Assembly (NCBI GenBank): GCA_026991575.1
Contig: JALXBF010000087.1
Location: 1-61,790, forward strand
Direction of reading: 5' to 3'
Origin: Planctomycetota bacterium
GTDB lineage: Bacteria; Planctomycetota; Planctomycetia; JALXBF01
Length of the DNA: 61,790 nucleotides
The position numbers were made by a program, and so were the translations under genes. How positions within the stretch are numbered: the stretch's first letter is position 1; each line of letters begins with the position of its first letter. Under the pieces are notes generated by a model. The model had not been told where the DNA came from. It saw only the letters and a list, made by a program, of their open reading frames with translations, and did not search any database. Of the stretch, positions 26,352 to 28,445 are shown in pieces.

Positions 26352-26828
26352 CTAACCGCAGGTCTGACGGATCGCCTCCACGATCTCGTCATCACTGCGC
26401 TGCTGACCAAGATCGTTGACCTTGACCCACTTCACGATGCCGTCCTTGCCGACGACGATCGTTGCCCGAGCGGTGAAGCCCTGGTCGTCAAGGTACACGC
26501 CGTACTTGCTGGCCACCGCACCCTTGGGATGGAAGTCGGCCAGCAGTGGGTAGCTGATGCCACCGAGCTTCTCGGCAAACGCCTTCAGTGTCGGGACCGA
26601 GTCCACACTGATGCCCAGGACCTGGGCATCCACGCCCGCGAACTTCTCGGCATCCTGTTCGCAGGCGGGCAGCTCGCGGCTTCAGACCGGGGTGAACGCC
26701 AGGGGGAAGAAGAACAGGACCACGTTCTTCTTGCCCAGGAACTCGTTCAGCGAAACGTCACGGTCTAGCGTCGATGGCAGCGAGAAGTCGGGTGCCTTCT
26801 CGCCCACCTTGATCGGGTTCAGCGACAT
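26352..26828 (-). CDS. Peroxiredoxin with predicted selenocysteine at the peroxidatic site
   Basis: AhpC/TSA-fold peroxiredoxin of 158 residues if TGA at 26682-26684 is read through. Residues 1-48 run from MSLNPIKVGEKAPDF to FFFPLAFTPV; the frame continues unbroken as SRELPACEQD and AQVLGISVDSVPTL to GIVKWVKVNDLG. The TGA falls at residue 49, the Cys of the PxxxTxxC motif (P42, T46), and the helper Arg121 is present in FTARATIVV. A possible resolving Cys56 lies seven residues on. There is no signal peptide, so it should reduce hydroperoxides in the cytoplasm. Its ATG follows AGGAGG; the in-frame Met at 26864 is rejected. A hairpin starts 15 bases after TGA. A simple nonsense mutation is the alternative. 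Confidence 0.85.
26633..26667 (-). promoter_or_regulatory. Candidate bacterial SECIS hairpin of the peroxiredoxin
   Basis: An uninterrupted 11-bp stem (26667-26657 with 26643-26633, one U-G pair) encloses a 13-base loop beginning AGG. The loop starts 26 bases after the TGA. Bacterial SECIS elements typically have an apical loop 16-37 bases from UGA, of 3-14 bases, with a G in the first two positions; all of these are met. Confidence 0.7.
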
Positions 26829-26909: not shown

Positions 26910-27023
26910 CGCCACCGTCAACGGCCAGGCGGCCCAGTCCGGTTGGCCGGGGCGCTTGATACTCAGAGGAGCCGACTCCCCGCAACTGTTGCCCCCGGCA
27001 GTCAGCGATCCGGAGGCCCAACC

Positions 27024-28445
27024 ATGCACCGCTTCTCGGCCACCATGAGCACGGTGCTCGTCGCCACGACACTGCTGGCCGCAACCGATCCGGCAGGCTA
27101 CGCTCAGCAGCGGGAACGCCCCGACAATGAGACGTTCCTCCACCAGTCGCCCCGCGTTGGCGAACTCATTCCGGACGTGATCGGTTACGACGAGCAAGGT
27201 GAGCCGTTCCCGCTGCGAGCCAGGCTACGCGGCAGCTATACGGTACTGGTCTTCGGCTGCCTGACGTGACCGCCTTTCTTGCGAAAGGTCCCCGGTCTGG
27301 AGGCCCTCCAACGCGACTACGGCCCGAAAGGCGTCAAGTTCTACTACGTCTACAAGGCGCTGGCACACCCGGAACTGCACGGCTATGTCACGCCTTACAC
27401 GCTCCAGGAGCGGCTCGCACACGTACGCGAAGCGCGCCGCCGGCTACGCACGCAGATCCCCTGGATCGTGGACGCCATGGATAACCGGATCAAACACGCC
27501 TTCGGCGACCGTCCCAACTCGGAGTTCCTGATCGACCCGGAAGGCATCGTGCTGGTGAAGCGAGCCTGGAGCAATCCGCAGGCGTTACGTGCCGATCTGG
27601 AACGCATCGTCGGCCCGGTCGCGCAGCGTACCGACCCGGACGAGCTCGAGCTCGGCCGGTTGCCCGGCCGCTCCGAAGCGCGACCGGCAGAGCTGCCACG
27701 GCTGGAGCTACCGGCGGCGCTGGTACCGGTCCGCGTTCGCCCCCATCTGGCCACGAGCACGGAGCCGTTCTACGCGAAGCTCCGCGTCGAGGCCGAGCGG
27801 TCCGTGCTTCGCACCGGGTCCGGAAAGCTGTACTTTGGCCTGCGCCTGGACCCACTCTACGGCGTGCACTGGAACAACCTGGTCGGCCCAGTGAAGGTCT
27901 CGATCGACGCTGCCGACAGAATCCGCGTCTCCAAGACAGCCCTGGTCGCGCCTCGGCCAGAGCAGGACTCGGACGCCGCGCCCCGCGAATTCCTGCTCGA
28001 CGTCACGGATGCACAGCGCGGCGCAACGCTCCGCGTGACCGTGCACTACGCGGCGTGCCACGGCAAAGAAGGCTGGTGCAAGATCCTGGCCCAGCAGTTC
28101 ACGATCATCCTGGAGCGGGACCCGGATGCGGGCCGCGTCCTACGCGGCCGAGCACGCCGGCCAGTCCGGTCCGAACGGGCGACAGACGGCGACCAGGCCG
28201 CTCGCCGCAGCGGGCCACTGCTACGCGGCACGGTCGTGCAAGTCGGATCCGGCCAGCTGCTGCTCCGCACCGCCGACGGCGATACCATAAAGCTGCGGCT
28301 CCTGCCCGGCTCCTACGCCGTGCAGCGTGGCAAGCGGGTGGCGTTGCAAACGGTGCGTAGCGGCCAGCGGGTCGCAGTGCGGACGATCGCAACCGGGGCA
28401 ACCCCAGCGGTACGCTACGTGCTGCTGTTGCCGTCCGAACCGTAA
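27024..28445 (+). CDS. Exported deiodinase-like selenoprotein with DsbD-alpha-like domain
   Basis: A 473-residue protein if TGA at 27267-27269 is read as selenocysteine (Sec82). A signal peptide (about 1-28) suggests export. The thioredoxin-like domain (about 38-200) has VLVFGCLTUPPF, matching the GSCTUPPF site of iodothyronine deiodinases, AHP at 114-116 where deiodinases have EAHP, and VDAMDN (149-154) with a following AFGDRP, like the deiodinase MDN and AYG segments. A second domain (about 240-365) resembles the DsbD N-terminal domain and has VTVHYAACHGKEGWCK with Cys345 and Cys352. A beta-rich C-terminus (about 400-473) follows. The frame is intact before and after TGA. The start has GGAGG at 27012. 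Substrate is unknown; thyroid hormone is not implied. Confidence 0.85.
27268..27310 (+). promoter_or_regulatory. Candidate SECIS region of the deiodinase-like gene
   Basis: Two hairpins follow the TGA. The first pairs GACCG (27268-27272) with CGGTC (27293-27297) around an inner CCTTTC/GAAAGG stem (27273-27288, loop TTGC). The second is TGGAG (27298-27302) with CTCCA (27306-27310) around loop GCC, whose G starts 34 bases after TGA and fits the bacterial SECIS pattern. Which is used cannot be told by eye. Confidence 0.5.

Follow-up and report, generated by a model that had tools for sequence, protein, structure and literature searches.

Predicted export and a DsbD-alpha-like partner domain in a deiodinase-like selenoprotein family of Planctomycetota and Acidobacteriota

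Deiodinase-like selenoproteins of bacteria were described in 2005 from the Sargasso Sea (PMC1088965). In the accessible text of that report they resemble the protein treated here in a Sec/Cys pair at the catalytic position, a bacterial-type SECIS and the PF00837 fold, whereas neither a DsbD-alpha domain nor export is mentioned there. Deiodinase-like/EF-hand and Prx-like/PF11412 fusion selenoproteins were reported in 2021 (PMC9402790, Fig. 2B and Fig. 2D, respectively). In the available portion of that paper the EF-hand is the only domain named for the former; the latter has, like our protein, a Sec redoxin and a DsbD_N/'DsbC' domain in one chain, but with a Prx-like U/CxxC motif against our deiodinase-like CxxU. 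A 2026 review (PMC13188914) lists TsoB, a rhodanese/DsbD fusion-like double selenoprotein, and counts the deiodinase-like family with those of largely unknown function. That review was also the only text with both words in a literature search for deiodinase together with DsbD, and in the literature searched we found no description of a deiodinase-like domain fused to DsbD-alpha. The original prediction had taken the architecture to be new; this stands for the DsbD-alpha fusion, while the 2021 fusions were already known.

The window is the whole stretch of DNA analysed, 61,790 nucleotides, from a Planctomycetota genome of 4.96 Mb (191 contigs, 97.8% complete). On its forward strand, one conserved 473-codon gene (27024..28445; ATG at 27024, TAA at 28443-28445) is split by an in-frame TGA at 27267-27269, in the context ...VLVFGCLT-TGA-PPFLRKV..., and homology runs through the TGA. 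A Shine-Dalgarno-like GGAGG, read from the sequence, lies at 27012..27016 on the same strand, with the ATG 7 bases further on. Because standard ORF calling breaks them at the TGA, genes of this kind readily escape notice. With the TGA taken as selenocysteine (Sec82) the product has 473 aa. The codon at 27258..27260 (+ strand) encodes Cys79, an invariant residue three positions before Sec (CxxU) and the predicted resolving Cys. The site had been likened to the SCTUPPF of deiodinases: Sec and PPF were borne out, but the motif reads GCLTU, with Cys at -3, whereas the SCTU of animal DIO1 and DIO3 has it at -2. The segments AHP (114-116) and MDN (152-154), also proposed as deiodinase-like, are present, as is CHGKEGWC (345-352).

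The family set holds 16 distinct proteins, the window's included; the 15 relatives, from Planctomycetota and Acidobacteriota, are 38-52% identical to the window protein. A scan of contigs gave 13 full relatives, one partial thioredoxin match being left out, and L037 and L066 (Cys form) were added; L022 and L068 are one gene. Members are rare, with 4 of 392 genomes sampled in the phylum carrying one, and no relatives were found in the viral contigs scanned. Alignment of the relatives spans the TGA codon over ~340 residues, with GCLT and the Sec/Cys position invariant. Codon 82 is TGA in 14 of the 16 genes, that is, at exactly this codon in 13 relatives besides the window gene, and Cys (TGT or TGC) in two; no other residue occurs there among the 15 relatives. 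Between relatives, dN/dS on the 3′ side of the TGA is 0.09-0.19, which together with the alignment across the codon puts the reading frame beyond chance.

Full Sec machinery lies within 5 kb on one contig (C184) of the window's genome: tRNA-Sec (73.3 bits; anticodon TCA by ARAGORN), selA (559 bits), selB (384 bits) and a Sec-type selD with its own TGA. The order there (L017, G000:C184) begins with a SelW-like ORF (FCSVUNYE) just upstream of selD, itself a selenoprotein gene (SCAGUAGK), after which come selB, selA and tRNA-Sec. In every genome with the TGA form selA was found above its curated cut-off, and it was absent from the complete genome G437, which carries the Cys form. The second Cys-form genome has a selA fragment cut by the contig end and is therefore no clean negative; both Cys forms group together in the tree (support 100/100) and so may represent a single event. 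In a Phycisphaerales relative (L022:4660-6149), selA, tRNA-Sec and the deiodinase-like selenoprotein gene stand in series on one strand.

The TGA/Cys exchange among homologues, the complete machinery and the downstream selection strongly support the reading of codon 82 as Sec, as had been predicted. Reading the TGA as a genuine stop, an artefact of sequencing or the mark of a pseudogene is scarcely credible: a TTG start at 27279 could open a downstream ORF, but the same codon is TGA in 14 distinct genes from independent assemblies and Cys in two, and strong purifying selection downstream is accompanied by complete Sec machinery. Termination, error and pseudogene were rejected on the conserved TGA, the co-occurrence of selA and dN/dS.

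A SECIS-like hairpin lies at 27287..27305 (+ strand), with the apical loop GGUCU; a single C-A mismatch interrupts the window copy. All 14 TGA genes have such a hairpin of 7 bp, with a five-base loop containing an invariant G, located 20-38 bases past the T of the TGA; across them 91% of hairpin cells are paired, against 38-64% with the partner slid, and the outer pair is altered on both sides in four sequences. Stability exceeded that of synonymous recodings at p <0.05 in 10 of the 14 (one further gene at p = 0.05), and the hairpin is lost in both Cys genes. Taken alone, the window hairpin does not differ significantly from its synonymous recodings (p 0.29, z 0.09), and Rfam at gathering thresholds gave no match in the window. 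Its apical GGU resembles that of E. coli fdhF.

Residues 40-200 (27141..27623, + strand) make up a deiodinase-like domain of thioredoxin fold. PF00837 (T4_deiodinase) scored 27.8 bits on the window protein, narrowly above the gathering cut-off of 27.0, and matched all 15 members scanned at E <=0.1; Redoxin and AhpC-TSA match too. The best PDB sequence for the family profile was DIO3 (E 1.1e-6), and the NF038285 profile scored the window protein at 56.2 bits, below its curated cut-off of 250. In an AlphaFold2 model with mean pLDDT 80 (mostly >90 over residues 41-200), the best structural match was DIO2 (9h48; Z 19.3, rmsd 2.1 over 157 residues), followed by DIO3 (4tr3; Z 18.6, rmsd 2.8 over 160), and the best other chain reached 17.0. 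The thioredoxin fold expected under the original prediction is strongly matched, and model and profiles give strong support to a thioredoxin fold of the deiodinase/peroxiredoxin type in which Sec occupies the catalytic position.

In the alignment, Ser167-Cys168-Thr169-Sec170 of DIO3 (numbering after PMC7506546) become Cys79-Leu80-Thr81-Sec82, and T-U-P-P, Tyr110 and His115 correspond to Thr169, Sec170, Pro171, Pro172, Tyr197 and His202. Glu200 is replaced by Leu113 and, in a hand alignment where loop D is shorter, His219 by the invariant Glu129. The DIO3 active-site network thus retains Thr169, Tyr197 and His202, with Ser167, Glu200 and His219 replaced. Compared with DIO1-3 as a group, the window protein shares the fold, the Sec position, T-U-P-P, Tyr197, His202 and the loop-D position, but has its proximal Cys at -3 instead of -2 and lacks Glu200 and His219; animal DIOs are membrane-anchored homodimers, whereas it is predicted to be exported and has an extra redox domain. 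DIO3 activity requires Glu200 and Thr169, and Glu200Ala and Thr/Tyr network mutants are inactive (PMC7506546). With Glu200, His219 and Cys168 replaced, thyroid-hormone deiodination by the window protein is unlikely, so that the proposed name, deiodinase, holds for fold and ancestry but not for activity. Reductive dehalogenation of environmental iodinated or brominated aromatics would fit a protein whose two best structural matches are DIO2 and DIO3 and whose T-U-P-P, Tyr110 and His115 correspond to DIO3 active-site residues; we nevertheless hold it very doubtful, given the four substitutions at Ser167, Cys168, Glu200 and His219 and the inactivity of the DIO3 mutants, and none of the neighbour genes scanned was noted as a dehalogenation gene.

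A true peroxiredoxin-type peroxidase, its DsbD-like domain a structural or dispensable docking module, is an unlikely reading, though the AhpC-TSA and Redoxin profiles match the family (sub-threshold in the window copy), many Prx structures rank after DIO in the structural list, and the divergent neighbour gene encodes a Sec peroxiredoxin. Deiodinases rank above Prx by structure, and the Cys pair of the second domain is invariant (16/16). The peroxiredoxin active-site motif is P-x3-(T/S)-x2-C/U, and the window protein departs from it: the Thr at -3, seen in FTPVU of the neighbour, is the invariant Cys79. That neighbour (26352..26828, - strand), noted as context only, has its TGA (26682-26684, in AFTPV-U-SREL) at the peroxidatic position and scores 125 bits with AhpC-TSA; the two selenoprotein genes stand back to back. 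A shared Prx neighbour was sought in the other family loci and not found.

We hold it less probable than the peroxidase that the protein resembles ResA, TlpA or CcmG and serves in the periplasm as a thiol-disulfide reductase or isomerase of proteins. ResA-type matches turn up in sequence and fold, DsbD-alpha-partner complexes are among the structural matches of the second domain, and E. coli DsbD-alpha normally feeds ResA/TlpA/CcmG-like proteins; however, the second CxxC residue is Phe85 or another non-Cys, the redox pair is a CxxU placed before the helix, and the invariant His115 in AHP is deiodinase-like.

The second domain, residues 232-368 (27717..28127, + strand), is a DsbD-alpha-like (PF11412-like) Ig-fold domain. 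Sequence searches with it were unproductive: Pfam and PDB searches with the domain alone gave no usable match, and the PF11412 profile did not match the window domain and matched 2 of the 16 members weakly (best E 0.012). Structure and profile-profile comparison were therefore used. For the domain modelled alone (pLDDT 88), the first four Foldseek matches were E. coli DsbD-alpha, weak at E 0.006-0.01; its Z of 7.9 (1vrs) was tied with adaptin ears and other Ig-like sandwiches, so the fold alone is not specific. Profile-profile comparison with 31 DsbD_N domains, drawn from the window's genome and its relatives, gave a probability of 93% (P 2.5e-7), the controls (one reversed, eight permuted) all staying at <=1.7%, and the alignment pairs both cysteines and the HWNN / WH-N segment with DsbD_N. 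The cysteines, Cys345...Cys352 (28056..28079, + strand), lie across a beta hairpin, in the model at a strand end and a strand start, respectively, and are invariant in 16/16. Like nDsbD (PF11412), the domain has a YxxC-x(4-6)-C hairpin towards its C-end and the aligned HWNN/WH.N motif, and it is modelled with an Ig-like fold, a type that adaptin ears match equally well; it falls below the Pfam cut-off and is fused to a deiodinase-like redoxin, not to the DsbD membrane domain. The DsbD-alpha-like partner with CHGKEGWC proposed at the outset was upheld; its identification as a DsbD-alpha module, divergent but with the Cys pair invariant, is strongly supported. Elsewhere in the genome another protein (L071, G000:C126) has a DsbD_N domain at its C-end, a further unusual DsbD_N fusion whose partner we take to be a YyaL/DUF255-like protein.

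Export is predicted from a Sec-type signal peptide at residues 1-28 (27024..27107, + strand), a basic n-region and then a hydrophobic stretch, in keeping with the signal-peptide-like N-terminus initially noted. An AxA-like site followed by AQ is seen again in relatives, most of which, where the N-terminus is intact, have a comparable leader often ending xAxAQ; model pLDDT is <50 for residues 1-30.

We think it probable that the protein is an exported Sec redoxin with its own reductase domain, in which Sec82, Cys79 and Cys345/Cys352 form a relay. In the periplasm the Sec82 selenolate would reduce a small oxidised substrate and become oxidised; the invariant Cys79 of CxxU would attack oxidised Sec82, giving a selenenyl-sulfide; the fused domain would reduce the Cys79-Sec82 bond in cis through its Cys345/Cys352 dithiol; and the membrane electron carrier DsbD would recharge the dithiol. 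The Cys79-Sec82 bond is suggested by human DIO1, where the proximal Cys bonds the catalytic Sec/Cys and an external thiol then reduces the bond (PMC9141512); by analogy, the fused DsbD-alpha-like dithiol may stand in for the external thiol of DIO1. DsbD is present in the window's genome, and DsbD-like matches were found in 15 of 16 genomes searched. As to the substrate, our single likeliest guess, and a tentative one, is a hydroperoxide; a protein or mixed disulfide is appreciably less likely, and a carbon-halogen bond less likely again.

The DsbD gene of this genome (L103:879-3398, G000:C127) encodes DsbD_N, a membrane domain and, in tandem, a pair of thioredoxin domains of gamma type; both of these contain WUxxC (TGA at L103 2568 and 3102), and the gene product is apparently a double-Sec DsbD. 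Near-identical, stable SECIS-like hairpins follow both TGAs; the loop GGUCU recurs after the first, and the second has GGUCC. Among the DsbD matches of the remaining family genomes, a single one contains a TGA.

The C-terminal part of the family is, by sequence comparison, exchangeable. The window copy, without EF-hands, ends in a DUF5818-like beta domain (28218..28433, + strand; PF19135 23.1 bits, below the cut-off of 27), and 9 of the 16 members have EF-hands in the C-terminal place. The deiodinase-like/EF-hand fusion, as far as the available part of its report goes, resembles these members and is possibly of the same family (PMC9402790). Identity is unproven because the NF038285 paralogue has EF-hand-like repeats too. 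In NF038285 (NCBIfam), too, the deiodinase-like domain carries a pair of CxxC/U type (GCFSC), but the EF-hand-like part precedes the redoxin, so that the domain order differs from that of the window protein.

A second deiodinase-like gene adjoins the family gene in two loci (L027:1666-2871 and L028:5846-7063); that in L027 is an NF038285 member (325.8 bits; EF-hand-like part first, GCFSC), and the L028 gene is homologous. The L027 contig (CAMAVB010000303.1) is labelled Candidatus Kuenenia stuttgartiensis and its protein falls within a fully supported Planctomycetia-type clade; perhaps the contig is misbinned. In the EF-hand subgroup one conserved gene precedes the family gene and another lies close by, which we take to be lipoprotein-like and DUF1559-like prepilin genes, respectively; they do not cluster with the window's genes and so were not used.

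Sequences of bacterial deiodinase-like proteins have been known since 2005; here the partner domain points to an electron source, the DsbD system, and to a compartment. The family is small enough for testing, and natural Sec and Cys forms exist. We can envisage, as a long shot, a selenium-based periplasmic electron line from the double-WUxxC DsbD through the DsbD-alpha-like domain to Cys79/Sec82, which would make the protein a self-contained exported reductive enzyme whose target is an electrophile outside the cytoplasm, possibly a carbon-halogen bond, and also a possible model for the origin of animal deiodinases from redoxins. For the evolution of the thyroid-hormone enzymes, the family contributes a CxxU branch that is predicted to be exported.
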